This document shows, in pieces, positions 44,088-63,823 of a DNA stretch of 64,000 nucleotides (its first letter is position 1; each line of letters begins with the position of its first letter). Origin of the DNA: an uncultured Anaerolineae bacterium (GTDB lineage Bacteria; Chloroflexota; Anaerolineae; Anaerolineales; Villigracilaceae); assembly GCA_903822545.1 (NCBI GenBank), contig CAIJPN010000086.1:1-64000 (forward strand), given 5' to 3'. The position numbers were made by a program, and so were the translations under genes. Under the pieces are notes generated by a model. That model did not search any database and was not told the DNA's origin. It saw only the letters and a list, made by a program, of their open reading frames with translations.

Positions 44088-44095
44088 GAATTGAC

Positions 44096-44617: not shown

Positions 44618-44636
44618 CACCGAAAGAACCCACCTG

Positions 44637-46586: not shown

Positions 46587-46634
46587 AAATGACCATGCGA
46601 AGGCCAGCCGCCTTCGCATGGTTTCTGGAATCTC

Positions 46635-47333: not shown

Positions 47334-47334
47334 T

Positions 47335-48036
47335 ATGGAAAAAGGAACCGACATCCGCCCCAGCGGAAACTACTTCCGAGCAGTTTCTGCCGTCGCCTGG
47401 AAAGACCTGGCTGCCGAGCTTCGCTCACGCGAACTACTATCTTCCATGCTGGTATTTTCCCTGCTCGTCATCCTGATCTTCTACTTTGCCCTCGAACTGG
47501 ATGTGAAAGCCCGCGAAAAAATTACCGCCGGAGCCTTATGGGTCACCTTCGCCTTTGCCGGCACACTTGGGCTGAACCGCTCCATGGCAGTCGAAAAAGA
47601 CCGCGGCTGCCTCGACGGCCTCCTGCTGGCCCCGGTTGACCGCTCAGCCATCTACTTTGGCAAAGCAATTAGCAACCTGGCCTTCATGCTCATCGTGGAA
47701 GTAATCGTTCTGCCAGTTTACAGCGTACTCTACAACGTCAACTTATTCAACTTCGGGCTGATTGGTGTGATCCTGCTCGGCTCACTTGGCTACATCTCGG
47801 TCGGAACACTACTATCCACCATGTCTGTGCAAACCCGCACCCGCGATGTGCTCCTGCCCATTCTGCTCTTCCCGGTCATCGTCCCCGTATTGGTCGCCGC
47901 TGTCAAAGCTAGCAGCGGCTTCCTGCAAAACCTGGAAATGAGCGAAATCATGGCATGGGTCAACCTACTGATCGTATACGACATCATCTTCACTGCCATT
48001 GCCTTCATGGTTTTCGATTACGTTGTGGAAGAATAA
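47335..48036 (+). CDS. ccmB: Haem exporter membrane protein CcmB
   Basis: 233 residues with six helices, the membrane partner of CcmA. The sequence begins with a cytosolic stretch containing VAWKDLAAELRSRELLSSMLVFSLLV, as in the family. FAGTLGLNRSMAVEKDRGCLDGLLLAPVD is a CcmB landmark. The ATG at 47335 is right after the ccmA TGA; a longer frame reaching 47221 overlaps ccmA and is not homologous. Confidence 0.95.
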   Translation: MEKGTDIRPSGNYFRAVSAVAWKDLAAELRSRELLSSMLVFSLLVILIFYFALELDVKAREKITAGALWVTFAFAGTLGLNRSMAVEKDRGCLDGLLLAPVDRSAIYFGKAISNLAFMLIVEVIVLPVYSVLYNVNLFNFGLIGVILLGSLGYISVGTLLSTMSVQTRTRDVLLPILLFPVIVPVLVAAVKASSGFLQNLEMSEIMAWVNLLIVYDIIFTAIAFMVFDYVVEE

Positions 48037-48073
48037 ACCCGCGACGGAAACCTAACTTTTTCAAAGGAGTTCT

Positions 48074-48763
48074 ATGTCCTCGCAACCTCGCGCCTTACAA
48101 GTTCTCAATATCCTTTCCGTGGTGCTCCTGCTTGCTGCATACGCTCTGGTGTTCGGTTTTGCGCCCATCGAAAAAGTGATGGGCATCGTGCAAAAAGTGT
48201 TCTACTTTCACGTTGCCACCGCCTGGGTTGGTATGCTCGGATTCATCGCCGCCGCCATCACCGGCGTCATCTACCTGCGCACCCAAAACCTAAAATGGGA
48301 CATCATCACTGTCTCAGCAGTGGAAATCAGCCTGGTATTCTTCTTCATCACCATTGTGCTAGGCTCCACCTGGGCGCGCCCATCCTGGGGCACATGGTGG
48401 ACATGGGAACCACGCCTGACCACTGCCGCCATCCTCGAAATGATTTACCTCGCCTATATGCTCCTGCGCCAGGGAATTGACGACCCGGAGCGGCGCGCCC
48501 GTTTCGGGGCAGTTTACACCCTGATCGGTGGCATCAGCGTCCCGGTCACCTTCGTATCCATCCGGCTCTTCCGCACCATCCACCCGGTAGTCATCGGCAG
48601 CGGTGGAGGCGAGACAATGGGTCTAACCCGTCCCATGCTTGGAATCATGTTCTTCAGCATTGCCGTTTTCTCAGTCATTTTTATCACCCTCTTCTGGCAT
48701 CGCATCCGTCTCGGGCAGCTTGCCGACCACGTTGAGCAACTCAAACTAAAAATCACCCATTAA
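48074..48763 (+). CDS. ccmC: Haem exporter / CcmE-loading protein CcmC
   Basis: 229 residues with six helices. CcmC loads haem onto CcmE through its WWD domain, seen as STWARPSWGTWWTWEPRLTT, flanked by the two external His in KVFYFHVATAW and RTIHPVV. Starts after AAGGAG. Completes the CcmABC set with ccmD directly downstream. Confidence 0.96.
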   Translation: MSSQPRALQVLNILSVVLLLAAYALVFGFAPIEKVMGIVQKVFYFHVATAWVGMLGFIAAAITGVIYLRTQNLKWDIITVSAVEISLVFFFITIVLGSTWARPSWGTWWTWEPRLTTAAILEMIYLAYMLLRQGIDDPERRARFGAVYTLIGGISVPVTFVSIRLFRTIHPVVIGSGGGETMGLTRPMLGIMFFSIAVFSVIFITLFWHRIRLGQLADHVEQLKLKITH

Positions 48764-48778
48764 ACAGGGAGACTCCCC

Positions 48779-48928
48779 ATGGAAACAACCGTTCCAGACA
48801 CATTTAGCTACTTTATTGGTGGCTACATCTTCTTCACCGTCATGATGACAATATATGTTACCAGCTTGTTTATACGCTGGCGCTCGCTTAAACAAGAACA
48901 GGCAATTCTTGATGGAATTGAAAACTAA
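48779..48928 (+). CDS. ccmD: CcmD-like small membrane protein
   Basis: 49 codons, too short for most automatic calls. One helix (YFIGGYIFFTVMMTIYVTSLF) is followed by the basic-aromatic IRWRSLKQEQ, the usual CcmD pattern of a helix and a cytosolic basic tail. It starts 16 nt after ccmC with GGGAG upstream. CcmD is needed for release of holo-CcmE from the CcmABC complex. Position and shape carry this call; the sequence of CcmD is poorly conserved. Confidence 0.75.
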   Translation: METTVPDTFSYFIGGYIFFTVMMTIYVTSLFIRWRSLKQEQAILDGIEN

Positions 48929-48933
48929 CCTAT

Positions 48934-49051: not shown

Positions 49052-49876
49052 ATGGCTCTTCGGGGTAACCTTCGCGATTTTACAGTAACACAGTTATTAA
49101 ATCTAATTAATCTGGCCCACAAAACCGGTACATTGGTGATTGAAGGGCCCAGTGAGGTCGCGCGTGTTGCTTTTCGCGATGGCAAACTTGCCTATGCCCA
49201 GGTAGGGCAGGAAGACAACCGCCTGGCAACCGTGTTGCATCGCTCCAACCGGCTAACGGCTGGGCAATATAATGCTATCATCCAGCGCGCTGCCCACGTA
49301 ACCGATAAAGAATTAGGCTTGTTGCTGATTAATGCTGGGTATCTATCCCAGGGTGATATTTTGACGGCGCTCCAGGCTTACTTCACTGACGTTGTTCGAC
49401 GTTTATTTACCTGGGTCGAGGGGTTTTTCAGGTTTGAAAATGAAATGATGCCCCCGGAAGACAGGATTAACGTCCGCCTGGACCTGGAAAATCTCATCAT
49501 CGAAGGCGCCCGCCAGCTACGAGAATGGGAACAACTTCAGGATGAAATCCCCAGCCTGGATATGGCGTTGAAATTCACCGAGCGCCCTGACACAAACATC
49601 CAAAAAATGAATTTGAGCGTGGAAGAATGGCGGGTGGTATCTTTCATCAACCCCAAAAACACCATTCGCCAGATTGGCGCCGCCGCCAAAATGGGCGACC
49701 TGGAAATCCGCCGCATCGTATATGGCCTGTTACAAGCTGGCTTAGTGGAAGTTGTGCGCCCTGAAGGCGCGCCGCCCACCGCACAAGAAAGAACCCGCGC
49801 AGCTGCGCCTGTTCAAGACAAAGAAGAACAGAAGTCGCTGGTTAACCGTTTGATCACGCGTATCCGCTCGATCTAA
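49052..49876 (+). CDS. DUF4388-domain protein
   Basis: 274 residues. The N-terminal DUF4388/PATAN-like domain starts MALRGNLRDFTVTQLLNLINLAHKTGTL and contains RVAFRDGKLAYAQVG, typical of this family of signalling partners in gliding bacteria, cyanobacteria and Chloroflexota. A second part (~185-235) with NLSVEEWRVVSFINPKNTIRQIGAA looks like a winged-helix-type repeat. A charged tail ends the protein. The ATG at 49052, preceded by GAGG, is preferred over a TTG at 48977 because DUF4388 begins with MAL-G-L. DUF4388 often accompanies Ras-like GTPases such as the next gene. Confidence 0.85.
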   Translation: MALRGNLRDFTVTQLLNLINLAHKTGTLVIEGPSEVARVAFRDGKLAYAQVGQEDNRLATVLHRSNRLTAGQYNAIIQRAAHVTDKELGLLLINAGYLSQGDILTALQAYFTDVVRRLFTWVEGFFRFENEMMPPEDRINVRLDLENLIIEGARQLREWEQLQDEIPSLDMALKFTERPDTNIQKMNLSVEEWRVVSFINPKNTIRQIGAAAKMGDLEIRRIVYGLLQAGLVEVVRPEGAPPTAQERTRAAAPVQDKEEQKSLVNRLITRIRSI

Positions 49877-49906
49877 TCCTTATTATCTAAGCTAAGGTGA
49901 GAAATT

Positions 49907-50449
49907 ATGCAAACAGTCAAAATGGTAGTGACTGGCCCCTTCAGTTCTGGCAAAACGGAGTTTATCCGTTCCGTCAGTGAAATCGATGTTGTAGCGACTG
50001 AGCGCAAGATTTCATCGGACGCCGAAAAAACAGTTAAACAGGCGACCACAGTGGCGATGGATTTTGGCCGTATTACTGTGGATGAAGACCTGGTTCTCTA
50101 TCTTTTTGGCACTCCCGGTCAGAAGCGCTTCGATTTCATGTGGGAAATCCTTTCAGAGGGTATGCTGGGTTTCATCGTCATGGTGGATAGCACCCGCCCT
50201 GAAACTTTTCGCGAAGCCCGCTCCATCCTTGAAACCTTCCGCGCCTATGCGCCTACCCCTTACGTCGTTTCAGCCAACAAACAGGATGCACCCGATGCCT
50301 GGGATGTGGAAGACATGCGTCATGCCCTGCGCCTGGATGCAAAAGTAAAACTACTGCCTTGTGTCGCGACAGACAAAACCACAGTGAAGAATGTACTGTT
50401 GGAATTGCTGTACAGCATTTTGGCCGAGATGGATGGCGGAGCAAAATAG
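49907..50449 (+). CDS. Ras-superfamily small GTPase (MglA/Rup-type)
   Basis: 180 residues. Cytosolic GTP-binding switch. G1/P-loop GPFSSGKTEF at residues 10-19, G2 Thr in KQATTVAMDFG, G3 LFGTPGQKRF (DxxG replaced by TPGQ, as in MglA-like proteins), G4 SANKQDAPDAW, G5 PCVATDK. Such GTPases set cell polarity or relay signals together with Roadblock- or DUF4388-type partners. No Roadblock/LC7 gene is adjacent. It sits directly after the DUF4388 gene in the same operon. Confidence 0.9.
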   Translation: MQTVKMVVTGPFSSGKTEFIRSVSEIDVVATERKISSDAEKTVKQATTVAMDFGRITVDEDLVLYLFGTPGQKRFDFMWEILSEGMLGFIVMVDSTRPETFREARSILETFRAYAPTPYVVSANKQDAPDAWDVEDMRHALRLDAKVKLLPCVATDKTTVKNVLLELLYSILAEMDGGAK

Positions 50450-50464
50450 CTTCGTGAAAAAGCC

Positions 50465-51265
50465 GTGTCCTCAATTACTACCGATCAAGGTATCGTTCAC
50501 TACGAAGTTTATGGGCGCGGTCGTCCGGTTATTTTGCTGCATGGGTGGCTAGGTTCTTGGGGATTGTGGCAAGAAACCATGGCCTATTTAGGCCGTTATT
50601 ATCGCACCTATGCGCTGGATTTTTGGGGGTTCGGCGAATCTGGCAAGAAGCGTGAAACTTACGCTGTGCAAGATTTTGTCAGCCTGGTAAACCAATTTAT
50701 GGATATTTTGGGGATCGTCAACGCCCCGCTGGTTGGCCACAGCATGGGTGGGACGGTTAGCCTTTCTGTAGCGATCCAGTACCCTCACCGGGTTAGCAAA
50801 GTCGTTGTGGTTGGCTCCCCCATTGTCGGGACATCGCTGGCGCTTCCGCTCAAACTGGCAGGATACCACTTTATCGCTTCCATTCTTTTCAATATGATGT
50901 GGGCTTTTCGCGGGGGGTTACGGATAGCATCTCCGTTTATTTGCGCTGATCCGCGTTTCCCGAAAATGATGGATAACGACCTTACCAAGACGACAGTTGA
51001 ATCTTTCCTGTTGAGTATTTCATCACTGCACCGCACCGACTTGCGCCCGATGCTCTCGCAGCTTAAAATCCCTGTAATGGGCATGTATGGAGATCGTGAT
51101 AATATCGTTCATCCGCGCCAATGGCAGCCGCTTGCGCAAGGCGTACCTCACGCACGAATTGTTCGTTGGCCGCGTGCCCAGCATTTTGTGATGATAGATG
51201 AACCGCAAGATTTTATGGAGAAGCTGAAAAATTTCCTGGATCAACAAGAGAATCCTACCGGATGA
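50465..51265 (+). CDS. Alpha/beta hydrolase, intact catalytic triad
   Basis: 266 residues, start GTG at 50465. Alpha/beta hydrolase fold with oxyanion HGWLGSW, nucleophile elbow GHSMGG (Ser93), acid in MYGDRDNIV and His in RAQHFVMID. The N-terminus SITTDQGIVHYEVYGRGRP aligns residue for residue with the pseudo-hydrolase at 63038. This type includes haloalkane/epoxide-hydrolase and RsbQ-like members. It likely cleaves or senses a small hydrophobic compound. It ends with an ATGA overlap to the V4R gene. Confidence 0.9.
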   Translation: MSSITTDQGIVHYEVYGRGRPVILLHGWLGSWGLWQETMAYLGRYYRTYALDFWGFGESGKKRETYAVQDFVSLVNQFMDILGIVNAPLVGHSMGGTVSLSVAIQYPHRVSKVVVVGSPIVGTSLALPLKLAGYHFIASILFNMMWAFRGGLRIASPFICADPRFPKMMDNDLTKTTVESFLLSISSLHRTDLRPMLSQLKIPVMGMYGDRDNIVHPRQWQPLAQGVPHARIVRWPRAQHFVMIDEPQDFMEKLKNFLDQQENPTG

Positions 51266-51897
51266 CTTCATCAGTTTCTTCTCCCGCCTATTATTATTCC
51301 AATCGAATGGGGCGGATCATCCTTTTGGCAATGGAAGAGATTGTCGGTTTGAATGGAGCAAATGCAACACTCAACCTGGCTTCTCTTTCGTCTTTTATTA
51401 ATAACTATCCCCCTCAGAATCACAAACTCGAAATTCCTTTTCGTTCGATTTCGAACATCCTGGTAGCCTTTGAAAGCCTTTATGGGCCTCGGGGTGGCCG
51501 GGGCGTAGCCCTGCGTGTTGGGCGGGCCTGCTTCCAACACGGGCTGCGTGAATTTGGCCCCATGTTTGGGCTGACTGACGTGGCTTTTCGGATGCTTCCA
51601 TTGCAAACCAGGCTCAACGTAGGGGCAGCCAGCTTCGCTGAGATTTTTAATAAGCATTCTGATCAGCGTGTTCGCCTTGAAGATGATGGGCGCATGTTGC
51701 ACTGGCATATTGAACGCTGTCCGCTTTGCTGGGAGCGCAAAACTGATGCACCCTGCTGCCACATGGCTGTCGGTTTATTACAGGAAGCTCTTTACTGGGT
51801 TAGTGGCGGTAAAATTTTTAACTTAGAAGAAACCCGCTGCATTGCCTGTGGAGACGCCACCTGTACCATTGTCATAGATAAAATCCCAATTTCCTGA
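51262..51897 (+). CDS. V4R-domain protein
   Basis: 211 residues. Cys-rich sensory domain of the 4-vinyl-reductase (V4R) family, which folds like TRAPP subunit Bet3 and binds small hydrophobic ligands. The characteristic end CIACGDATCTIVIDKIP is present, with CPLCWERKTDAPCCHMAVGLLQEAL ahead of it. The N-terminal half (MGRIILLAMEEIVGLNGANATL; FESLYGPRGGRGVALRVGRACF) fits the helical part. The ATG overlaps the hydrolase stop. As a ligand-binding partner next to a Ras-like GTPase, it is one of the most interesting genes here. Confidence 0.82.
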   Translation: MTSSVSSPAYYYSNRMGRIILLAMEEIVGLNGANATLNLASLSSFINNYPPQNHKLEIPFRSISNILVAFESLYGPRGGRGVALRVGRACFQHGLREFGPMFGLTDVAFRMLPLQTRLNVGAASFAEIFNKHSDQRVRLEDDGRMLHWHIERCPLCWERKTDAPCCHMAVGLLQEALYWVSGGKIFNLEETRCIACGDATCTIVIDKIPIS

Positions 51898-51899
51898 CT

Positions 51900-53177
51900 A
51901 TGCTAAAAGTAATTCTCCAATCCAAACGTGTTATCCCCCCTTTTAACGAAGCAGCGCGCGATCTGCGCGTTCAAAATGTGCCGCTATGGTTATGGCAGCG
52001 CAATGTTCTTGCTCCCTATGTTACTCGTGAAACCGAAGTGCCAGAAAAATCACCCCTCCCACAGCTACACGAGCCCATGCTGGTATATCGCGACAATCTG
52101 TTTTTCGATGAATTCTACATCGACGAATTCATCAAACAGGCCAAACGGCGCGGGCGCCCGTGTCGTGCCGCCTTCTCTTTAGATGACCCAGCTTTTCGAG
52201 AACATGCCCTGCCTTTGTCTGTTTCCTACACCCCCGCCGGATTGAACTACCTGGCCGACCTGTGGTACTACCCCAATGGCCCCGAAGCTGATGTCGATCC
52301 CTTGGTGATCAGCCTCCAGTCGCGTGAAGTCGGTTTCTACCATGTGCCATCTTACATGGCTGGTGAGCGCGGCGACCTGGTCTACCAGGTGCCTCAGCGC
52401 GCCATGATGGCGATCGACTGCTGGTCACACATGTTCATTGTGGATGTGGTTTTTGGCCTGTTCAAACGCGCCAACCGCTACGAAGTCCGCTCAAATACAG
52501 ACCCTATCTTCAAACTGCAAATCACCGCCCGGGCTTTATACGAAGGCCGCCAGGTGCTGGAATGTTCCGAGATGGTCAAAGTTGGCAAAGGCTGCACCAT
52601 CGACCCGCATGCCATCATTCATGGGCCCACCACCATCGGCGATAACGTAACCATCGGCGCGGGAACTGTCATCGAAAACTGCATTATCGGCAACAACGTT
52701 AATATTTCACAGGATGTTCAGTTGATGCTTTCTGTAGTGGGTGATGGTACCTTCCTACCCTTCCGGGCAGCCCTGTTTGAAACCACCATTATGGATAACT
52801 CGATGGTCGCCCAAAATACCTGCCTGCAAATGTGCGTGGTTGGGCGAAACACATTCATCGGAGCTGGTTCCACCTTCACCGACTATAACCTGCTGCCTGC
52901 CCCAATAAAAACCCTGGATGGCAACGAAAATCTAAAACCGACAAACCTGCCCGTATTGGGCGGGGCAGTGGGACACAACTGCCGTATAGGGGCTGGGATG
53001 ATTGTATACCCGGCTCGCACCATCGAGTCGGATGTTGTTATCGCCGCATCGAAAGAACGCCGGGTGATCGACAAAGATGTCAAATATGAAGATAGCGACC
53101 ACCACAAAATGAAAAATTCCCATCTCCATAAGCGCCTGTACCCCCGCCGGGGCGAGTCAGACCTGGAATCCTGGTGA
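51900..53177 (+). CDS. Left-handed beta-helix (hexapeptide) protein, transferase-like
   Basis: 425 residues. The first ~220 do not match a family I know; they end in YEVRSNTDPIFKLQ. Residues ~225-385 form a left-handed beta helix with hexapeptide repeats, for example CTIDPHAIIHGPTTIGDNVTIGAGTVIENCIIGNNVNI and IGAGMIVYPARTI. This resembles GlmU/LpxA-type acyl- and nucleotidyl-transferases. It starts 2 nt after the V4R stop. A role in modifying a cell-surface molecule is a guess from the fold only. Confidence 0.7.
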   Translation: MLKVILQSKRVIPPFNEAARDLRVQNVPLWLWQRNVLAPYVTRETEVPEKSPLPQLHEPMLVYRDNLFFDEFYIDEFIKQAKRRGRPCRAAFSLDDPAFREHALPLSVSYTPAGLNYLADLWYYPNGPEADVDPLVISLQSREVGFYHVPSYMAGERGDLVYQVPQRAMMAIDCWSHMFIVDVVFGLFKRANRYEVRSNTDPIFKLQITARALYEGRQVLECSEMVKVGKGCTIDPHAIIHGPTTIGDNVTIGAGTVIENCIIGNNVNISQDVQLMLSVVGDGTFLPFRAALFETTIMDNSMVAQNTCLQMCVVGRNTFIGAGSTFTDYNLLPAPIKTLDGNENLKPTNLPVLGGAVGHNCRIGAGMIVYPARTIESDVVIAASKERRVIDKDVKYEDSDHHKMKNSHLHKRLYPRRGESDLESW

Positions 53178-53180
53178 TTA

Positions 53181-54272
53181 ATGGATAGTTTTGCATTTAT
53201 TATTCATCCAATTGACCCCAAACGTGATGTTAGCAGAAAATACCCCTTCTTAGGAAAAATCCTTACCGAAAACCAGATCAATTTCTTTTCAACATTCTTC
53301 CCACCCGTTTATATTTCTGAAATTGAAGGAATTACATCTGCTGCTACTGGCAAGCAGATAAAAGGCTGGTTCATTGCCTGCCCCTTCACACCAAAGCGGA
53401 TGCTGGAGTTGCCTGAAAAGACGGTATACAAGAAAATTATCCAGACCGGGCATATGTCTGAACGGTTGGGAGCAAACATCCTCGGGTTAGGTGCATTCAC
53501 TTCAGTGGTAGGTGATGCAGGGATTACGATTGCCAGGGCGTTGGATGTGCCTGTGACTACAGGAGATTCTTACACGGTCTCGCTGGCTGTCGAATCCATC
53601 CAAAAAGCTGCTGAGATTATGGAAATCCCGTTATCTACTGCCACAGCTGCGGTGGTTGGAGCGACCGGTGCAATTGGGAAGATTTGCGCAGAATTACTCT
53701 CTGAAGCAGTTGGTGAGTTATACTTAATAGGACGACGTTTGGATGCCCTGGAAGAACTGCGAGAACGTTTGAGTCCAACGGCGCGCGCTGTTTTGCATAT
53801 CAGCAACAAAATGGATGTACTTTCACGGGCAAATTTAATTTTGACAGTAACAAGTGCTATCCATGATATTATTCAACCCGAGCATCTCCAACCGGGTAGT
53901 GTTGTTTGTGACGTGGCTCGACCTCGTGACGTTTCTGCAATGGTGGCAGCCGCGCGAAATGATATATTAGTAATTGATGGCGGCATGGTGGATGTGCCAG
54001 GGCCAGTCAATTTTCACTTTAACTTTGGTTTTCCGCCAGGAAAAGCTTATGCCTGTATGGCAGAAACTATGGCTCTGGCGCTCGAAGGGCGATTTGAAGA
54101 TTACACGTTGGGCAAGGAAATTACCCGCGCTCGCGTTGATGAAATCGCAAATATTTCAACAAAACACGGTTTTCGCTTAAGTGGCTTCCGCTCGTTTGAG
54201 CGAGAAGTGACATCTGAACAAATCGAAATTGTGCGAACGAATGCTAAGAAAATGCTTGCACGCAAATCATGA
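53181..54272 (+). CDS. Acyl-ACP reductase (AAR)-like oxidoreductase
   Basis: 363 residues. Homologous to cyanobacterial acyl-ACP reductase, which makes fatty aldehydes. Matching blocks are EIEGITSAATGKQIKGWF, LGLGAFTSVV, VTTGDSYTVSLAVESI and the NAD(P) motif VVGATGAIGK (residues ~158-167). The active Cys is in KAYACMAETMALALEG (Cys292), where cyanobacterial AAR has FACFAEAMLLEFEG. KHGFRLSGF matches the AAR C-terminus. No aldehyde decarbonylase gene is in the window, so the aldehyde may be a signal or intermediate. The final substrate is inferred, not shown. Confidence 0.8.
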   Translation: MDSFAFIIHPIDPKRDVSRKYPFLGKILTENQINFFSTFFPPVYISEIEGITSAATGKQIKGWFIACPFTPKRMLELPEKTVYKKIIQTGHMSERLGANILGLGAFTSVVGDAGITIARALDVPVTTGDSYTVSLAVESIQKAAEIMEIPLSTATAAVVGATGAIGKICAELLSEAVGELYLIGRRLDALEELRERLSPTARAVLHISNKMDVLSRANLILTVTSAIHDIIQPEHLQPGSVVCDVARPRDVSAMVAAARNDILVIDGGMVDVPGPVNFHFNFGFPPGKAYACMAETMALALEGRFEDYTLGKEITRARVDEIANISTKHGFRLSGFRSFEREVTSEQIEIVRTNAKKMLARKS

Positions 54273-54284
54273 TGGAGGCTCGTT

Positions 54285-55190
54285 ATGGGAAAAGCCCGCC
54301 TTTTGATTACCGAAGATGATGTCGATATCTCGACCATGCTCAAAATCTACTTCACTGGCCTCGGCTATGAAGTCGATACTGCCCTGCGTGGCCTGGATGC
54401 GCTGGAGAAGACACGCCAGGTGCTTCCGCACCTGATTGTGCTCGACATCATGCTGCCCGATATCGATGGGTATGAAGTCTGCCGCAACCTGCGTACCAAC
54501 ATGCGCACCAGCCACATTCCAGTCATCTTCCTGACACAAAAAGATGAACGTAGTGACCGGTTGCAGGGCCTGGAGCTTGGGGCGGACGATTACATCACCA
54601 AGCCATTCGACATCGAAGAGCTAAAGCTGCGTGTTCAGGGAGCCATTCGCCGCTCTGAACGCGAGAGCTTGACCGATCCACGTTCTGGCCTGCCTGCAGG
54701 ACGTTTGATCGAAGAACAATTGCGGAAAATCATCCGCGAAACGGGTTGGGCCTTCCTCGATTTGCGTATCAACCACTTTGAGCCATTCAAAGATGTGTAT
54801 GGGTTTGTAGCAGGGGATGATGTTTTGCGGTTTACCGGGATGCTCATTGGCGAAGTGCTCGACCAGATGGGCAGCACCAGCGATTTTGTTGGCCATGCAG
54901 GTGGCGATAATTTTGTCATCATCACCAAAGATGGGGCATCCACCCAAATCCGCAACCGCCTGAAAGACCGATTCAAAGAAGAAGTACAAACTCACTACAA
55001 CTTTATGGATCGACAGCAGGGTTATATCCTTGCGCCGACCAATGATGGGCAATCTGAGCGGGCAGCGCTTATGAGCCTGGCGATTGGGGTTGTTTCACCA
55101 TCGCAAAATTCATTTGCCGATATCCGTGAAATCACTGAACTGGCAGCCGAAGCGCGTCGCGCTGATGCCGCCGGGAGCAACAAAGGATAG
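54285..55190 (+). CDS. Response regulator with degenerate GGDEF domain
   Basis: 301 residues. The N-terminal receiver (~1-122) has acidic pocket EDD at 10-12, phospho-acceptor Asp54 in LIVLDIMLPDIDGYE, Thr84 and Lys107. A GGDEF-like domain follows (~130-295). Its signature is HAGGDNFVIIT, GGDNF in place of GG(D/E)EF, so diguanylate cyclase activity is doubtful. It may bind GTP or partner proteins instead. GGAGG precedes the ATG. It is located upstream of the giant histidine kinase, a likely phosphodonor. Confidence 0.88.
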   Translation: MGKARLLITEDDVDISTMLKIYFTGLGYEVDTALRGLDALEKTRQVLPHLIVLDIMLPDIDGYEVCRNLRTNMRTSHIPVIFLTQKDERSDRLQGLELGADDYITKPFDIEELKLRVQGAIRRSERESLTDPRSGLPAGRLIEEQLRKIIRETGWAFLDLRINHFEPFKDVYGFVAGDDVLRFTGMLIGEVLDQMGSTSDFVGHAGGDNFVIITKDGASTQIRNRLKDRFKEEVQTHYNFMDRQQGYILAPTNDGQSERAALMSLAIGVVSPSQNSFADIREITELAAEARRADAAGSNKG

Positions 55191-55198
55191 CATTTCTC

Positions 55199-58100
55199 AT
55201 GCTTGAAGGACAGTCTTTAGGCCTCGGTATTGGATTGCTGATCGCCGGACTCCTTTTTGTTCTGGCTGTCTGGTTCTTGTTACGCTTTGTTCCGCGCATC
55301 AGGCCAGATATCCGGGAAGTGACTACCCAGCTGGATGATATAAAAATCCAGCCGCATGGAGATGCCTTGTTGGTGATACGAACCGGGGGGCAGGTGGAGC
55401 ATGTTAACAAAGCCGCCCGGGAGTGGTTTGAATTGCTTGATGGGGAATTGCCCAACCTGGAACGCCTGGCAAGACGTATTCGCCCAGGCGAGAGTTTCCT
55501 CGAAATTTGCGCGGCTGAAGGTCAGGCGCGTTTTTCTATTAATGGCAGGTTGGCCGATGCACGCTCTTTTCGGGTGCCTGGCCCGACCCCTGTGGTGATG
55601 GTATCAATCTCCTGGGTGGATGCTGGTCTTGGTTTTGCAGAAGCGGGGGAAGAGCGCCTCTCTGTCAATGTTTTGAAACTGGTTTCAGATTTTTCCCGCA
55701 TTGTTTCAAGCGAACTAAGCTTGCCTGCCACTATCCAGGCTATTTTTGTAAATGTCGAAAATCTTATCCCCTCTGATTTTTTTGAAATCAAACTTTGGGA
55801 TGTACCATCTCACAGCCTGGTTACTTACCGGTTGGTTGGGCCGGTGGGAACATCCCGCCAATTACAGCAAGAAAAAGATACCCAATTCGGCGAATATTCT
55901 GCCGCGTTAGTGGCGCAGCGCCGGGAATTGATTATCGCAGATACGCGCTCGGCTTCACCGGTTCGTTTTGACCCGATTGGCACCAAAATCCCGCCGATGG
56001 GTTCCTATATCGGGTTACCTCTGCTGGTTGGGGAAGAGCTGGTTGGTACTATTGAAGTGGGCGTGACGCCTTCAAATGGGTTTTCGCTCGAAGATGCCCA
56101 CATCCTGCGCATGATCACAGGCCAGGTTGCGGTTGCCCTGCGCAATGCAAAGATGTATGAGGATCAACAACGCTGGACAACACAGTTGTTTGGCCTGACC
56201 AATCTTTCGCAATCGGTCAGTTCTTTGCGCGATGTTCGAGATCTTTTTGTGCGATTGGTGGAAGGGCTTTCTCCGTTATTCAACGTCAACATTTTAGGGT
56301 TCCTGCTGTACGATGAACATCGCCGCGTGCTGGAAGGTAAGGTTCCGTTTTTTGGGTTATCCAACCAGTTTGTTCAAATTTATAAAACATCCATTCGCCC
56401 CAACAGCCTGGCTGAAAAACGCATCTTGGGACAAGATATTATTGCATCGGTTGATGCATCCAACGATGAAGTGTGGAGTGACCTCGGTTTGCAAGACCTG
56501 GCCCAAGCGGCCAGCATCCGCGATACAGCCCTCGTCCCCCTCATTTCTGCAGGACGATTTTTAGGTTATTTGCAATTATCCAACCACCGTCAGGGAAACA
56601 CCCCGATTTCTCCAGAAGAGCTACGCTTGTTGAATGTGGTTGTCAACCAGGTTTCGGCTATTATCGAAAATGCGCTGCTGGTTCAGCAGGCACGCCAACG
56701 CAACCAGCGCACCGAGGCCATGCGCCGCATTTCCAGCCTGGTCAGTTCTCCGGCAACGCTGGACGAGATATTGCGCTATTCTGTTCAGGAGATTGCGCAA
56801 TTGCTCCAGGCAGATGTGGCTGCCATATTCCTGGTGGATGAACAAGAAGGTATTCTGCGCGGGCATATCCCTTCGGTCTATGGTGTCGCCAGCGATATGA
56901 TCGAGCCGCTTTCACGGCTATACATTAAATCATCCTCGGTTCATATAACGGTAGCGGGCAGCCAGCGCGCCTTTATCTCTGGGAATATCTCCAAGGGCCG
57001 TCGAATTTTGGGGGTTTACCGTCCGCTTGTGCGGCGAATGGCAATTGAATCAGCTATTGTCGTGCCGCTGATTGTGCGAGGCCAGGGCATTGGGGAATTA
57101 ATGCTTGGCTCTCACCTGGTTGACCTGTTCACCAATTATGATTTGCAGGTGGCCTCAACAGTTGCCAGCCAGCTTGCTGTGGCAATTGAAGGAGTGCGTT
57201 TTACCGGGCAGACGGATGATTTGATGCGTCGCAGGGCCAATCTGACCACTTTTGTCAGCCGGATTGCCCGCGAATTTAATACAACAGCAGATGTTTCTGA
57301 ACTTTTGCGCTTGATCTACGATGAAGCCCTCAAAATTTCGATGGCTGACTGCGGCGTAGCGATCATCTATAAAACCGACTCTGAAGAAAAGGGTTTTGAG
57401 CGCGAAATTTATGCTTCACTTGGACATAATACGGTCTCGCCACTGGTTAATGTTCATAAGAAAATGCTGCTGGATGGAGATTATGTTTTGGTGAAAGATG
57501 TTGATGAACCGCAGGTTCATCCTGGGGTTAGCGCAGCCCTGATATTTCCTCTCGCATATCACGAAGAAACAGTTGGTGTGATTGAATTGCACTCGTCAAA
57601 CCCTGACCGGTTTGATGAAATCGTCATCGAAGCGATGAAAACTCTTTCCATCCAGGCTGCTATCGCGTTGAGCAATATCTTCCGCCAGCGTGAGCAGCAG
57701 AAGCGTTTGGACACATTCCGCAAACGGATGGATACCCTGGGGCGTTTGTTCGAGATTTCGGGCAGTTTCCATGGGGATGAATCGGTGGAAGCCGCGCTTC
57801 ATCTCGTTGCAGATGGTTTGCGACAGCTGACCCCGTTTAATGTGGTGCTTATCAGTATTTATGATGATACCGATGCGCATTTGCAGCGGATTGCAGCGGT
57901 GGGCATTGCCCAAGATCAATTGGCGGCTGTCCTGGCTCATCGCTATCCATGGAGCAGTATTACCAGTTTTCTCCGACCTGAATTCCTGGTTGGGAAATCT
58001 TACTTTGTGCCTTTTGAACACTCCCCGGTTGCTCCTGCCGATATTCAGTTTGTAACCGTCCCGCTTGACGCCCCCAGCGATGGACCGGATGGCTGGAATG

Positions 58101-61100
58101 TGGAAGATTTGCTCCTGGTTCCACTTTTTGGGGATGATGGCAGCCCGATTGGCATGATCAGCCTGGATGCGCCTCGTGATGGCAAGCGCCCGAGTGCATC
58201 TACCTTTGAAATTATCGATGCTTTCACAGACCAGGCCGTTTTGAAGATGGTTGTTGCCAAAACGCTGTCACAGTACAAGCAAAAACTCCAGGATCTGTCT
58301 ATAGAAGTTGCCCGCCAGAAAACACTGGTTGATTTTGGATACCAAAGCTTGCCCATGTTCCTCTACAAGGATATTGAGCAGACTGTGGCGATTAACAACC
58401 TGTATCAGCGTTCCCGCCACATCCGCTCTGGGTTGCAATTGACCGAAGCTGTCAGCCGCCAGGTTGATTCTGTTTCAGCCCTGACGATGCTGGGGCAGCA
58501 GATTTTGACCAGCTTTGATATGTCGGCTTCTATGATTGCGCGTGAGACCCCTGAAGGCCCGCGCATCACCAGCGTTTTTGGGAATCTGCCCAAAGGCGCC
58601 AACCCGGAAGCGATGTTTGGCCAGCGCAATCCGCTTCGTAATTGCCTGCAAACGGGCGAGACCTTGATTTCTGAGAATTTGGATGAAGACGAAACCTGGC
58701 ATGATACCCCCTTCCTGACGGCTCTACGCACCAAGTCGTTCATCTGCATCCCGATTGTGATCAATAACAAGCCCCTGGCCGCGGTGATGGCAATTGACAC
58801 TTCACCCTTGCCATCTGTCAGCATGGATGATCGCCAGGTTTACTTCCAGATCAGCCGCCAGATTTCCATCATCCTGCAAAATATCAACCTGCTGAGTGAA
58901 ACCCGCCAGCGTTTGCAAGAAGTTAATCTTTTGCTCGATTTCAGCCGCCGTTTGAGCGGTCTTAACCCGCAGGAAATTTTACAGGCGCTGCTTGACAGTT
59001 CTTTGAAGGTGGTTTCTGCTGCTCATGCCGGTGTGGTGATGCTTGCCAGTGATAGCGAAGTTGCCCTGATACCGCAGGTTGCGCAAAATTATGTGGATAA
59101 TGCCAGCATACTGGAAATTTCCTACGCTTTCGGGGAAGGTTTGCCTGGGCGAGCGTATATCGAAAAACAGCCGCGCCGGGTTGATGAAGTCAATTTTGCT
59201 TTCGACTATAACCTTGGTGCTGAGAACCTGCTCAAATATCGTAAAGCTGTCGGAGGGCGAGTACCCATCTCCAGCATGGTCGTGCCTATTCGAACCAGTG
59301 AGCGTGAAATTGGTGTGATGGTGTTGGATAATTTCAACACCCCTTCAGCTTTCCGGCCAGATGATGAAGCCATCTTGCTCTCATTGACCCAACAAGTGGC
59401 TCTTTCACTTGAAAACGTTCGTCTGATGCAGGCAACCGAAGAACGCGCCGGGCAGCTCCAGGCGCTAAACTCAGTTGCGGCGGCAATCAGCACCAGCTTG
59501 ATGCGCGATGAATTGGTGCAGTCCCTGTTAGATCGTTTAGGCCAGGTTATCCCATACGATACCGCCATCTTGTGGATGCGCAGCGAGAATCGTATGGTGG
59601 TGGCTGAAGCGCGCGGTTACAGCGACACAGAAGATCGCAAAGGCTTGATCGTAGACGTTTCTGATAGCCTCCTGCTTAACGAGATGTTGCGTTCCGGTCA
59701 GCCTATCAATGTTGGAGATGTTCATGCCGATTCTCGTTTCCCGGCGCTGATCGATGTCCAGTATTTCTCGTGGTTGGGTATCCCTTTGTTGACCAAAGGA
59801 CAGGTTACGGGTGTGATTGCACTGGAAAAACGGGAAAAAGCTTTTTACCAGCCCGAACAGATACAGCTTGCCAGCACATTTGCCAGCCAGGCATCTGTGG
59901 CCCTCGAAAACGCCAACCTTTTTGAAGAAAGCGTCCGCCGCGCTGCCGAACTGGACGAGCGTTCACAACGCCTGGCAATGCTCAACCAGTTCTCCTCCCA
60001 ACTCAACAGCGCCCTGACCGCAGACCAGATTTTGCGCCTGACTGCCACCCAGTTGATGACAGCCCTGCAGGCTGAGCGCACCATGATCATCTTGATCGAC
60101 AAACATTCCCGGGCCTTCTTGTTGGCTGTGTTGCCCGATGAATCTGATACGCCCCCCATTTATCGAACATTACCGCCATCCATGGTTTTGTCGCGCCTGG
60201 CAGAATCACTCAGCGTCTATACCACCGATCATGTACCTGGCAACAAGGAACTTGCTTCCCTGATCGAATACCTGCCCGATGTTGAGTCCCTGATGGTTTT
60301 GCCGATTGATACCAACCAGCTTGTTTACGCTATCGCTGTCGAAACCCATTCGCAACACCACTTCCTGCCTTCTGAGATCGAACTGGCTCGCACAATCGGC
60401 AACCAGGCTGCCATTGCCCTGGAAAGCGCCGATCTTTACCAATCTACACGCGCCACAGCCGATCGCATGTCTACTCTCAACATTGTGAGTGCTGAAATCA
60501 GTGCCACCCTGGATCCTGATGAAATCTACAAGGCCATCCACAGCGCCGTGAGTAAGTTAATGCCGCTGGATGCCTTTATCATTGCACTCCATGACCAGGT
60601 GCGGAACGATATCGATGGCGTTTATATCGTTGACATGGGCCAACGCATCGCCGGGGTACGCCTGGCTTACGGGGAAGGCCTTAGCGGACGTGTGATCGCC
60701 AATGGACAACCCGTCTTGACGCTCGATGCCGCCGAGTCTGACGCAGCCGGTGGAGTCAATATCGGTGAAGAAGCCACCCCACACTCCATCGTAGCTGTCC
60801 CGATGTTTTCTGGGCAGCGTGTAGTAGGCATGCTTTCTGCACAGACTTATCAATACAATGCTTATGATGAAAACGATCAGCAGCTTTTGGGAACGCTGGC
60901 AAATCAGGCTACTGTTGCCATCCAAAACGCACGTCTGTTTGCCGAAACCCAAAAATTTGCGGTCACGCTGGAACAAAGTGTGCAAGAACGCACCATCGAA
61001 CTGCAACGCGAAAAACATAACACAGAAACCTTGCTGCGCATCCTATCAGAAGTTTCGGCCAGCCTTGACCTTGACCGCGCCCTGAGCCGTACCCTGGCCC

Positions 61101-62653
61101 TGCTAAATGAAGCCATTGGCGGCGAGCAGGGAACCATTATGCTGGTTAGCTCGGAAGATAATATGCTCCACTACCGGGCCGGGTACGGCTATGCTACCGA
61201 CTCGTCCCAGGTGATGACGGCGCGGCCAATCAGCTCCTTCAAGCTGAAGATTGGCGAAGGCCTGGCAGGGTGGGTCGTTAAAAACCGCAAATCGGTTTTG
61301 GTGGAAGACCTTTACCAGGATCCACGCTGGGTGGTATCGCACAGCTCACAACAGCATCGCAGCGCCATCGTAGCCCCGCTGGTGGTTGGCGAAGATATCA
61401 TCGGCGCCATTATGGTGTTCCATCGCAAACTTGGCTATTTCACCCAGGCATCCCTCGATATGGTGCAGGCCATTGGCAGCCAGGTTGCCATTTCTATTAA
61501 CAACGCCCAGTTATATGGCCTGATCCGCGACCAGGCTGAGCGGCTGGGAAACATGCTGCGCAACCAGCAAATGGAAGCCAGCCGCCAGCAGGCTATCTTG
61601 GAAGCGGTAGCCGATGGTGTCTTGGTTACCGACCCTGCCAATAAGATTACTTTCGTTAATGCATCCATCGAACGTATCCTTGATCTTGGCCCATCCCGGC
61701 TGAATGGACAATCACTGGAAAACTTTGCCGGTCTGTTCGGTAAAACCACCCAGACCTGGACAAAAACCATTCGCAACTGGTCGCAAAACCCGGGCAGTCA
61801 GTATGCCGGAGAAACCTACGCCGAGCAGATCAGCCTCGATAACGGGCGTGTTGTCCTCGTACACCTGGCTCCCATCCTGTGGCATAATGAATTCTTGGGA
61901 ACGGTTTCAATTTTCCGTGATATAACCCATGAAGTTGAAGTTGACCGGCTCAAATCTGAATTTGTTGCTACCGTCAGTCATGAATTGCGCACGCCAATGA
62001 CAGCCATTCGTGGTTATGTCGATGTGATGCTGATGGGTGCCGCTGGGGCCTTGACCGACAACCAATCGCATTTCCTGGCCATTGTGAAAGAAAATACCGA
62101 ACGGCTGAATATCCTGGTGAATGACTTGTTGGATATTTCCCGCATCGAGGCAGGCCGAGTGACACTCTCCATCCAGCGCCTGGATCTTGAACAAGTGGCC
62201 GAAGAAGTGGTCGATTCAGTGCTCCAGCGTTCGCAAAAAGAAAATAAATCAATGAGTGTTGCGCTCGATGTGCAACCTGAACTCCCCCAGGTTTTGGCCG
62301 ATCCGGAACGTATCCGCCAAATAATTGGCAATTTAGTCGATAATGCGTACAATTACACTCCTGAAAAAGGGATGATTACGGTTCACCTTCACAAAGCTAA
62401 TGGTGACGTTCAGGTCGATGTTAAAGATAACGGCATTGGCATCGCTATCGAAGACCAGCCCCGTGTATTCGATAGATTTTATCGCGGCGAAGACCCGCTT
62501 GTCCTGGCTACGCCTGGAACCGGCTTGGGACTTCCCATTGTCCAGCAACTGGTGGAAATGCACCATGGGCGTATCTGGCTTTCCAGCTCAGGACTGCGCG
62601 GTGAGGGAAGTACCTTTTCCTTCACCATCCCCGCAGAAAGAATTGAGGAATAA
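55199..62653 (+). CDS. Giant membrane histidine kinase with about eleven GAF domains
   Basis: 2484 residues. One N-terminal helix (~10-30), then a PAS-like fold (~45-150), followed by ~11 tandem GAF domains at about 155-325, 326-500, 503-670, 673-835, 837-1030, 1079-1240, 1241-1415, 1420-1585, 1595-1755, 1761-1930 and 1947-2115. Each ends with a Q-V/A-A-x-A-L/I-x-N-A-type helix (for example QVAVALRNAKMYEDQ, QASVALENANLFEES). A PAS (~2131-2240), HisKA with SHELRTP (His2261) and HATPase_c with N box NLVDNAYNY, G1 DNGIGI and G2 GTGLGLPI complete it. GAF arrays bind small molecules or photopigments; no ligand residues are obvious. No receiver is fused; two separate receivers flank it. Confidence 0.93.
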   Translation: MLEGQSLGLGIGLLIAGLLFVLAVWFLLRFVPRIRPDIREVTTQLDDIKIQPHGDALLVIRTGGQVEHVNKAAREWFELLDGELPNLERLARRIRPGESFLEICAAEGQARFSINGRLADARSFRVPGPTPVVMVSISWVDAGLGFAEAGEERLSVNVLKLVSDFSRIVSSELSLPATIQAIFVNVENLIPSDFFEIKLWDVPSHSLVTYRLVGPVGTSRQLQQEKDTQFGEYSAALVAQRRELIIADTRSASPVRFDPIGTKIPPMGSYIGLPLLVGEELVGTIEVGVTPSNGFSLEDAHILRMITGQVAVALRNAKMYEDQQRWTTQLFGLTNLSQSVSSLRDVRDLFVRLVEGLSPLFNVNILGFLLYDEHRRVLEGKVPFFGLSNQFVQIYKTSIRPNSLAEKRILGQDIIASVDASNDEVWSDLGLQDLAQAASIRDTALVPLISAGRFLGYLQLSNHRQGNTPISPEELRLLNVVVNQVSAIIENALLVQQARQRNQRTEAMRRISSLVSSPATLDEILRYSVQEIAQLLQADVAAIFLVDEQEGILRGHIPSVYGVASDMIEPLSRLYIKSSSVHITVAGSQRAFISGNISKGRRILGVYRPLVRRMAIESAIVVPLIVRGQGIGELMLGSHLVDLFTNYDLQVASTVASQLAVAIEGVRFTGQTDDLMRRRANLTTFVSRIAREFNTTADVSELLRLIYDEALKISMADCGVAIIYKTDSEEKGFEREIYASLGHNTVSPLVNVHKKMLLDGDYVLVKDVDEPQVHPGVSAALIFPLAYHEETVGVIELHSSNPDRFDEIVIEAMKTLSIQAAIALSNIFRQREQQKRLDTFRKRMDTLGRLFEISGSFHGDESVEAALHLVADGLRQLTPFNVVLISIYDDTDAHLQRIAAVGIAQDQLAAVLAHRYPWSSITSFLRPEFLVGKSYFVPFEHSPVAPADIQFVTVPLDAPSDGPDGWNVEDLLLVPLFGDDGSPIGMISLDAPRDGKRPSASTFEIIDAFTDQAVLKMVVAKTLSQYKQKLQDLSIEVARQKTLVDFGYQSLPMFLYKDIEQTVAINNLYQRSRHIRSGLQLTEAVSRQVDSVSALTMLGQQILTSFDMSASMIARETPEGPRITSVFGNLPKGANPEAMFGQRNPLRNCLQTGETLISENLDEDETWHDTPFLTALRTKSFICIPIVINNKPLAAVMAIDTSPLPSVSMDDRQVYFQISRQISIILQNINLLSETRQRLQEVNLLLDFSRRLSGLNPQEILQALLDSSLKVVSAAHAGVVMLASDSEVALIPQVAQNYVDNASILEISYAFGEGLPGRAYIEKQPRRVDEVNFAFDYNLGAENLLKYRKAVGGRVPISSMVVPIRTSEREIGVMVLDNFNTPSAFRPDDEAILLSLTQQVALSLENVRLMQATEERAGQLQALNSVAAAISTSLMRDELVQSLLDRLGQVIPYDTAILWMRSENRMVVAEARGYSDTEDRKGLIVDVSDSLLLNEMLRSGQPINVGDVHADSRFPALIDVQYFSWLGIPLLTKGQVTGVIALEKREKAFYQPEQIQLASTFASQASVALENANLFEESVRRAAELDERSQRLAMLNQFSSQLNSALTADQILRLTATQLMTALQAERTMIILIDKHSRAFLLAVLPDESDTPPIYRTLPPSMVLSRLAESLSVYTTDHVPGNKELASLIEYLPDVESLMVLPIDTNQLVYAIAVETHSQHHFLPSEIELARTIGNQAAIALESADLYQSTRATADRMSTLNIVSAEISATLDPDEIYKAIHSAVSKLMPLDAFIIALHDQVRNDIDGVYIVDMGQRIAGVRLAYGEGLSGRVIANGQPVLTLDAAESDAAGGVNIGEEATPHSIVAVPMFSGQRVVGMLSAQTYQYNAYDENDQQLLGTLANQATVAIQNARLFAETQKFAVTLEQSVQERTIELQREKHNTETLLRILSEVSASLDLDRALSRTLALLNEAIGGEQGTIMLVSSEDNMLHYRAGYGYATDSSQVMTARPISSFKLKIGEGLAGWVVKNRKSVLVEDLYQDPRWVVSHSSQQHRSAIVAPLVVGEDIIGAIMVFHRKLGYFTQASLDMVQAIGSQVAISINNAQLYGLIRDQAERLGNMLRNQQMEASRQQAILEAVADGVLVTDPANKITFVNASIERILDLGPSRLNGQSLENFAGLFGKTTQTWTKTIRNWSQNPGSQYAGETYAEQISLDNGRVVLVHLAPILWHNEFLGTVSIFRDITHEVEVDRLKSEFVATVSHELRTPMTAIRGYVDVMLMGAAGALTDNQSHFLAIVKENTERLNILVNDLLDISRIEAGRVTLSIQRLDLEQVAEEVVDSVLQRSQKENKSMSVALDVQPELPQVLADPERIRQIIGNLVDNAYNYTPEKGMITVHLHKANGDVQVDVKDNGIGIAIEDQPRVFDRFYRGEDPLVLATPGTGLGLPIVQQLVEMHHGRIWLSSSGLRGEGSTFSFTIPAERIEE

Positions 62654-62656
62654 CGA

Positions 62657-63031
62657 ATGGCGAAAATTGTGATCGCAGAAGATGAACCTGATATCCGAGA
62701 ATTAATCGCTTTTACCCTGCGTTTCGCCGGTTACGAAGTTGTCGCTGGCGCAAATGGTGAAGAAGGCTACCAACTGGCCAAAATGGAACGCCCAGATCTG
62801 TGCATGTTTGATGTTCGTATGCCCAAAATGACAGGCTATGAAGCCTGCAAAAAGATCAAAGCCGACCCAGAGACGGCCCATATTCCGGTAGTTTTTCTTT
62901 CTGCCAAAGGCCAGGAATCTGAGATCGAACAAGGGATGCAGGCTGGTGCCGATGAATACCTACTTAAACCTTTTGCTCCCGACCAATTAACGGAGCGCCT
63001 GCGTGAAATCCTCGCAAAACACGGTAAATAA
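62657..63031 (+). CDS. Stand-alone response regulator receiver
   Basis: 124 residues, receiver only: acidic EDE at 8-10, phospho-Asp52 in CMFDVRMPKMTGYEAC, Ser82 and Lys104 in LLKPF. It begins 3 nt after the kinase stop, so it is the cognate single-domain partner (CheY/DivK-like, no output domain). Output must be by protein interaction, possibly with the DUF4388/GTPase pair. Confidence 0.93.
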   Translation: MAKIVIAEDEPDIRELIAFTLRFAGYEVVAGANGEEGYQLAKMERPDLCMFDVRMPKMTGYEACKKIKADPETAHIPVVFLSAKGQESEIEQGMQAGADEYLLKPFAPDQLTERLREILAKHGK

Positions 63032-63037
63032 GTTTCT

Positions 63038-63823
63038 ATGAGCGCGATTCTACTTAATGGCGGCATTGTTCATTACGAAGTGATCGGGCGCGGGCGCCCC
63101 ATCATCTTCCTGCACGGCTGGGTTGGCTCATGGCGCTACTGGATTCCCGCCATGCAGACCGCTTCCACCCAGTTCCGCGCGTATGCCGTGGATATGTGGG
63201 GGTTTGGCGAAACAGCCCACGACGCTTCACGCTACACCATCGAACAGCAAATTTCGCTCCTTGAGCATTTCTTACAAGAAATGGGTATCGCCAAGGTTGC
63301 CCTGGTTGGACATGGAATTGGCGCAATCGTTGGGTTATTCTTCACCCTGCGGTTCCCAACAACTGTGGATCGCATCATGGCGGTGGATGTGCCGCTGGAT
63401 GTCAGCGCCGTCAACCCCAGGCTGCGCAGTGCCTCCCCGGCAGAACTGGCCGACTGGCTACTCAGCCGCGACAGCGTTTCAGATGCCGCCCGCGCAGATG
63501 CTCCCAAATCTGACCCCCTGGCGTTGACCATGCCGCTCAACTCCCCCGAAATGTTCAACCTGCAATCACGCATGGGAACCATGAATACTCCCGCGTTGCT
63601 CGTCTACGGGCAAAATGATCCATTGGTGACCATCCCTGGCTACGAAGCCGCCTCGCTGCCGCTCAACTCGCATGTACTGGTGCTTGACCAATCTGGCCAC
63701 TTCCCGATGCTCGATGATGCCGCGCGCTTCAACCGCCTTTTGACAGACTTCTTCGCCCTGCAATCTGGTGAAAGCCCGCGAGACCTCCAGATGAAAGAAG
63801 AATGGCGCAGGCGTGTGCGCTAA
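63038..63823 (+). CDS. Alpha/beta hydrolase-fold protein, nucleophile lost
   Basis: 261 residues, paralogue of the gene at 50465 along the whole length (GIVHYEVIGRGRPIIFLHGWVGSW). At the nucleophile elbow the expected GxSxG reads GHGIG: residue 93 is Gly (codon GGA, 63314-63316), exactly where the paralogue has Ser93. Asp in YGQNDPLV and His in QSGHFPML are kept. Catalysis by the usual Ser mechanism is not possible; a ligand-sensing or chaperone role is more likely. It closes the operon; a terminator follows directly. Confidence 0.88.
   Translation: MSAILLNGGIVHYEVIGRGRPIIFLHGWVGSWRYWIPAMQTASTQFRAYAVDMWGFGETAHDASRYTIEQQISLLEHFLQEMGIAKVALVGHGIGAIVGLFFTLRFPTTVDRIMAVDVPLDVSAVNPRLRSASPAELADWLLSRDSVSDAARADAPKSDPLALTMPLNSPEMFNLQSRMGTMNTPALLVYGQNDPLVTIPGYEAASLPLNSHVLVLDQSGHFPMLDDAARFNRLLTDFFALQSGESPRDLQMKEEWRRRVR

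Follow-up and report, generated by a model that had tools for sequence, protein, structure and literature searches.

Does an operon of an uncultured Anaerolineae bacterium code for a prokaryotic counterpart of the TRAPP-Rab pair? In 2008, V4R was reportedly proposed to be the ancestor of Bet3. To our knowledge, no prokaryotic V4R protein had been tied to a GTPase when this proposal was made. The locus lies in a stretch of 64,000 nucleotides (contig CAIJPN010000086.1, positions 1 to 64,000, forward strand), which was analyzed as a whole and is called the window below. The original prediction was that a V4R protein and an MglA-like GTPase encoded in this window might form an ancestor-like analogue of the TRAPP-Rab pair, provided that the V4R protein binds the GTPase.

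The Operon

As originally described, the GTPase (49907-50449) and the V4R protein (51262-51897) are encoded in one operon, the V4R gene being located two genes after the GTPase gene. They are part of a close-packed gene run on the + strand (49052-63823), in which the gaps range from a few to 30 bp. The hydrolase gene that separates the two starts 15 bp after the GTPase gene and overlaps the V4R gene by 4 bp. The genes of this run are:

49052..49876, + strand: DUF4388 protein, 274 aa, first gene of the operon (PF14332, 97 bits)
49907..50449, + strand: MglA-type small GTPase, 180 aa (Pfam Ras 40.5 bits, Arf 33.7 bits)
50465..51265, + strand: alpha/beta hydrolase with a GTG start, between GTPase and V4R (Abhydrolase_1, 112 bits)
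51262..51897, + strand: V4R protein with a predicted Bet3 fold, 211 aa (PF02830, 28.8 bits)
51900..53177, + strand: left-handed beta-helix (hexapeptide) acyltransferase-like protein (Hexapep, 58 bits)
53181..54272, + strand: long-chain acyl-ACP reductase-like dehydrogenase (TIGR04058, 122 bits, under its cut-off of 449.7 bits)
54285..55190, + strand: response regulator whose GGDEF domain seems degenerate, reading GGDNF (Response_reg 93.6 bits, GGDEF 41 bits)
55199..62653, + strand: very large multi-GAF histidine kinase, 2484 aa (HisKA, HATPase_c and no fewer than eight GAF stretches)
62657..63031, + strand: single-domain response regulator (Response_reg, 106 bits)
63038..63823, + strand: second alpha/beta hydrolase, last gene of the run (Abhydrolase_1, 70.8 bits)

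The DUF4388 domain, which we take to be a likely PATAN domain, is encoded immediately 5' of the GTPase in nearly all genomes of the class. PATAN genes have been found near MglA genes of groups 1 and 5, and group 5 neighbourhoods are widely variable (PMC4316618). In the host genome (5.5 Mb), there is a single gene each for a DUF4388 protein and for a close copy of the GTPase, along with two Roadblock and six V4R genes.

The response regulator encoded at 54285-55190 probably lacks diguanylate cyclase activity, because it has GGDNF in place of GGDEF and the motif is unrecognisable in many of its relatives. Relatives of the histidine kinase (55199-62653) differ strongly in length. Upstream of the operon (approximately 44000-48930), the genes resemble, as judged by eye from the sequence, a cytochrome c maturation (ccm) cluster.

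Identity of the GTPase

The GTPase matches the Pfam families Ras and Arf, both above the curated cut-offs, and its best relative of solved structure is MglA from T. thermophilus (3t12, E 5e-9). Across most families of the class, its sequence identity is 66-89%. The motifs are GPFSSGKT (G1), LFGTPGQ (G3) and NKQD (G4). Among 29 relatives, GPFxxGKT is found in all, as is LFGTPGQ or LYGTPGQ, while NKxD is found in 28. An aspartate in G3 (DxxGQ) is typical of Rab and Ras. It is absent from this protein and from all 29 relatives checked, which have GTPGQ instead. According to Wuichet and Sogaard-Andersen, GTPGQ in G3 is a mark of MglA groups 2-5 (PMC4316618). Based on the matches to Ras, Arf and Thermus MglA and on GTPGQ in G3, the protein is, as far as its sequence is concerned, a member of the MglA family and not a Rab.

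Several loci (L100, L101, L102, L105, L106 and L107) contain a conserved block coding for a Ser/Thr kinase with PQQ-type repeats, a PP2C phosphatase, a DnaJ-vWA protein and an FHA/zinc-ribbon protein. At two of these loci (L100, L102), genes for a receiver protein and for a second, divergent GTPase (46-54% identical) come after this block.

The V4R Protein: Predicted Fold and Putative Zinc Site

Compared to PF02830, the V4R protein from the window scores 28.8 bits alone and 31 bits in the genome search, the cut-off being 31 bits. A paralog and the orthologs score 34-43 bits and thus exceed the cut-off. The AlphaFold (AF2) model, for which 80 orthologs were used as input, has a pLDDT of 93.9. 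Its top structural match is an H-NOX protein (3nvr, Z 14.9, 171 residues). It also matches Thorarchaeal (Asgard) TRAPPC3 (7yh3, Z 14.0, rmsd 2.8, 149 residues), mouse Bet3 (1wc8, Z 13.2, rmsd 2.9, 150 residues), the Bet3 chain of the TRAPP-Ypt1 crystal (3cue_D, Z 12.0) and MopR (Z 11.9). While the structural matches thus include Bet3 and TRAPPC3, a profile search among PDB sequences retrieves MopR, MJ1460, PoxR and H-NOX, with neither Bet3 nor TRAPPC3 among the matches up to E 10. For this reason, we describe the protein as having a predicted Bet3 fold while belonging to the V4R family by sequence.

Five residues (C153, C166, E190, C193 and C201) are invariant in the ortholog alignment. Four of them (C166, E190, C193 and C201) align with C155, E178, C181 and C189 of MopR, which we assume to be the zinc ligands of that protein. 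The V4R protein thus seems to keep a putative zinc site of the sensor type (PoxR/MopR). His94, a candidate haem ligand, is mostly Tyr in the orthologs. V4R domains are thought to bind hydrophobic ligands (PMC2253512). The view of V4R as a sensor domain is supported by a distant Chloroflexota family, in which a Ser/Thr protein kinase and a V4R-like domain are encoded in a single frame (L226:5345-7102). In some Chloroflexia-like genomes (L249, L250), the V4R gene is located behind a frame that resembles, by eye, an out-of-frame sequence of a PucC-type light-harvesting transporter. These V4R proteins possibly represent the BchJ-like V4R branch.

Co-occurrence and Linkage

A set of 120 genomes from the same class was analyzed for gene co-occurrence. 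Counts are given as both genes, only the first, only the second, and neither. For the GTPase and V4R, they are 54/1/6/59. A lack of co-occurrence, which had been named as an outcome that would refute the original prediction, was thus not observed. In 40 of the 120 genomes, the V4R gene is located on the same strand, 68-1345 bp 3' of the GTPase gene, while approximately 0.02 such cases are expected by random placement. When tallied by hand at the level of families, the counts are 24/1/2/19 (p ~1e-9). Presence and absence cluster by lineage, so that none of the co-occurrence counts given here are independent and such p-values overstate their independence. Further V4R paralogs within the same genomes are not linked to the GTPase or to Roadblock.

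A similar picture emerged from a second collection. Among the best 80 of 564 V4R relatives, the GTPase is encoded upstream in 78, and the loci also contain the hydrolase (77 of 80), DUF4388 (74 of 80), the acyltransferase (74 of 80) and the reductase (63 of 80). For 301 genomes from the whole phylum, 55 contain strong V4R orthologs together with the GTPase, 4 only the GTPase, 1 only V4R, and 241 neither. All detected instances of the module are from Chloroflexota, the search outside of this phylum having covered 14 control genomes and, from one collection, the best 80 of 564 relatives. The control genomes from Thermus and Deinobacterium contain Roadblock and DUF4388 and have no V4R match. V4R is thus not a general requirement for a switch of this kind. 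The same gene order is found, without comment, in a published table for Anaerolinea thermolimosa, where the accession numbers skip one gene at the place of V4R (PMC8756737).

At many loci, the V4R gene adjoins a conserved gene for a protein of 123 residues, which belongs to the Roadblock/LC7 family (Pfam, 66.9-70.6 bits) and has MglB among its relatives. Roadblock is related in fold to longin domains, such as those of the TRAPP longin subunits, yet it is not a longin. Co-occurrence of the GTPase and Roadblock in the 120 genomes is 54/1/1/64. V4R adjoins Roadblock in 28 genomes, mostly 89-335 bp 3' of it, and the GTPase adjoins Roadblock in 5. The host genome has such a Roadblock-V4R pair on contig 45, away from the window (L108). 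When both types of linkage are considered, V4R adjoins either the GTPase or Roadblock in 51 of the 54 genomes that have GTPase and V4R, the exceptions being G051, G104 and G107.

Gene Arrangements, Duplication and Fusions

The arrangement of the genes varies. In a minimal cassette, the hydrolase is missing and the GTPase is directly followed by V4R (L068-L077, L135, L137, L224). The order GTPase-Roadblock-V4R is found in L127 and L208. The latter is from a genome that is 8% contaminated, so that its assignment to another class is less certain, and it has the order DUF4388, GTPase, Roadblock, V4R, acyltransferase, hydrolase, Roadblock. Roadblock-V4R pairs occur in L108, L228-L233 and L243-L245. 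Outside of the class, Chloroflexia-like genomes contain all three genes at scattered positions, with V4R next to the acyltransferase instead (L215, L219, L221). In L135, GTPase and V4R are approximately 216 bp apart (3929-4144), and this spacer may be what is left of a hydrolase gene after its deletion.

The V4R tree contains groups linked to the GTPase and groups linked to Roadblock, and it requires no fewer than four partner changes on well-supported branches. The Roadblock-linked V4R from L228 sits within a GTPase-linked group. The simplest history is that of one ancestral gene set that was later duplicated and split. An early duplication would have resulted in the two V4R copies of many Anaerolineae, one by the GTPase and the other by Roadblock. 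At Roadblock-linked and related V4R loci (L108, L114, L116-L121), a relative of the response regulator with GGDNF is encoded directly 3' of V4R, and several of these loci also have a gene resembling GT2/dolichol-phosphate-mannose synthase. These shared neighbours suggest that the block around V4R was duplicated.

Natural fusions of V4R with the GTPase or with Roadblock were not found among the loci searched. Two types of candidates were rejected: the long frames around V4R in L249 and L250, which proved to be upstream junk, and, upon checking, the GTPase frame of 469 aa from G399 as a DUF4388 fusion. A single case, from an incomplete genome, has DUF4388 and the GTPase within a single open frame (461 aa), and Roadblock comes next (L227:3088-4470, - strand). 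A sequencing error is possible, because a relative (L252) has DUF4388 and GTPase as separate, overlapping genes. A DUF4388-Roadblock fusion with a divergent GTPase upstream (L253:3777-4706) is one of several that are implied by overlapping matches. The fusion in L253 ties DUF4388 to Roadblock, and the frame in L227, if genuine, ties it to the GTPase. As a probe for contact between GTPase and V4R, AlphaFold was also applied to a read-through pseudo-fusion from L135, in which both are encoded in one frame (GTPase, a linker of 70 residues, V4R). The resulting model has a pLDDT of 74.7 and a pTM of 0.51, with a well-folded V4R half and a poorly folded GTPase half.

A Proposed Switch and Its Alternatives

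We propose, with a probability of about one in two, that the locus codes for a small-GTPase switch akin to MglA/MglB, in which V4R is the subunit that senses a ligand on a GTPase/Roadblock platform. The core of this switch would consist of the DUF4388/PATAN protein, the MglA-type GTPase, the MglB-like Roadblock protein and V4R. As a zinc-stabilised subunit for a hydrophobic ligand, V4R would dock on the GTPase/Roadblock platform and make the GTP/GDP state respond to a metabolite or a lipid-like signal. In Myxococcus, the receiver protein RomR helps to activate MglA. In a similar way, the histidine kinase and the receiver proteins of the operon would probably provide a second input. The likeliest candidates for the cellular output would be polarity, surface structures or envelope lipids.

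V4R might, alternatively, be a sensor or carrier of a hydrophobic substrate for the lipid-type enzymes of the operon, with a tie to the GTPase that goes no further than the shared operon. We consider this rather improbable. The main evidence for an enzyme-serving V4R comes from L215, L219 and L221, where it directly adjoins the acyltransferase while the GTPase is encoded elsewhere. Retention of the acyltransferase in 74 and of the reductase in 63 of the best 80 of 564 loci is consistent with such a role, as is the hydrophobic ligand binding ascribed to V4R (PMC2253512). However, in L068-L076 and L224, V4R comes directly after the GTPase and an acyltransferase was not detected in the neighbourhood, as is also the case for the Roadblock-V4R pairs. 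In G111, the enzymes stay at a GTPase locus that is devoid of V4R, while the sole V4R adjoins Roadblock. It is also conceivable, though very improbable, that there is no functional tie at all, and that inherited operon order and lineage-clustered presence within one bacterial class account for the data. The presence of GTPase, V4R and Roadblock does cluster by family, and the phylum sample includes non-adjacent copies in other classes. Yet the linkage survives several rearrangements, partner exchange and duplication, the pairs are adjacent in 40 genomes compared to approximately 0.02 expected by chance, and the unlinked V4R paralogs from the same genomes serve as an internal control.

The TRAPP-Rab analogy has to be considered separately. 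Bet3/Trs31 together with Bet5/Trs23 is an exchange factor for Rab1 and Rab11. Within TRAPP, the subunits in contact with the Rab are Bet3, Bet5, Trs31 and Trs23 (PMC9106297). It is unlikely in our view that V4R and Roadblock jointly open the nucleotide site of the GTPase as a TRAPP-like GEF. The three fold types of TRAPP-Rab are encoded together, in L208 and L127 even in a single run, and the V4R model aligns to Bet3 from the TRAPP-Ypt1 crystal (3cue_D, Z 12.0). On the other hand, H-NOX and TRAPPC3 match the V4R model equally well, the GTPase is MglA-type and lacks the G3 aspartate of Rab, and Roadblock is related to longin domains without being one. The original prediction is supported in part, by a co-occurrence and linkage of V4R and GTPase far beyond chance in approximately 24 families and several arrangements, and by the predicted Bet3/TRAPPC3 fold. 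It is fair to say that, at the level of folds, the analogy appears stronger than first proposed, because Roadblock is encoded in these genomes as well, at times within the operon, and because TRAPP uses Bet3-type and longin-type subunits jointly to contact Rab. The reading as an ancestor-like module is not supported by the present analysis, in view of GTPGQ in place of the Rab aspartate, the putative sensor-type zinc site, the equally good fold match to H-NOX and the detection of the module only in Chloroflexota. Likeness to TRAPP at fold level is no evidence for common function or ancestry.

Relation to Known Systems

Both MglA-MglB (Myxococcus, Thermus) and the Streptomyces conservons (CvnA-D) have an MglA-family GTPase with GTPGQ, Roadblock in the same genomes and sometimes in the same operon, and a histidine kinase and receiver proteins nearby, as is the case here. 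What distinguishes the Chloroflexota loci is the V4R protein in the linked set. V4R is absent from the main text of the MglA survey (PMC4316618). Within the literature searched, the linkage of GTPase, V4R and Roadblock appears to be newly described, while the MglA/MglB-type module itself was already known.

The TRAPP core (Bet3/Trs31/Bet5/Trs23) is similar in that a Bet3-fold protein, a small GTPase and a longin-related Roadblock are encoded together. It differs in that homology is at fold level only, the GTPase is MglA-type and the linked partner is Roadblock and not a longin. In addition, the system described here is known from genes and a predicted fold. The same three folds occur in Asgard archaea, another prokaryotic group, as Rab-like, Roadblock and TRAPPC3 proteins. 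One of the closest structural matches to the V4R model is TRAPPC3 from Thor (Z 14.0). This protein binds zinc (PMC10933270). In the Asgard strain MK-D1, the genes for the Rab-like, Roadblock and TRAPPC3 proteins are generally outside shared operons, as reported by Tran et al. (PMC10933270), whereas those for GTPase, Roadblock and V4R are linked here, and in Bacteria. Our literature search retrieved no paper in which bacterial V4R is connected to a small GTPase and Roadblock, this Asgard study being the only related one.

With regulators of the PoxR/MopR/DmpR type, the V4R protein shares the predicted fold and the C-E-C-C set of putative zinc ligands. Unlike these, it is a stand-alone V4R protein that is devoid of DNA-binding and ATPase domains and is linked to a small-GTPase module. 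With H-NOX, it shares the fold, this being the best overall match of the model (Z 14.9), but the sequence match is too weak for membership and His94 is not conserved.

Significance

The linkage provides a concrete and widespread candidate system, in which a stand-alone V4R, Roadblock and an MglA-type GTPase are encoded in the same genomes and often chromosomally linked. With proteins of approximately 120 to 210 residues, the old question of which function prokaryotic Bet3-like proteins have, and if control of small GTPases is part of it, becomes directly testable. It is a doubtful, if attractive, idea that Chloroflexota have a GTPase activator composed of Bet3-type, Roadblock/longin-type and Ras-type folds, with V4R functionally contacting the GTPase/Roadblock platform. 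If true, bacteria would have had a small-GTPase regulator of Bet3-type and Roadblock-type proteins either before the vesicle traffic of eukaryotes or independently of it. Should the TRAPP analogy not hold, V4R would still be a type of sensory input that is new for MglA-type switches.
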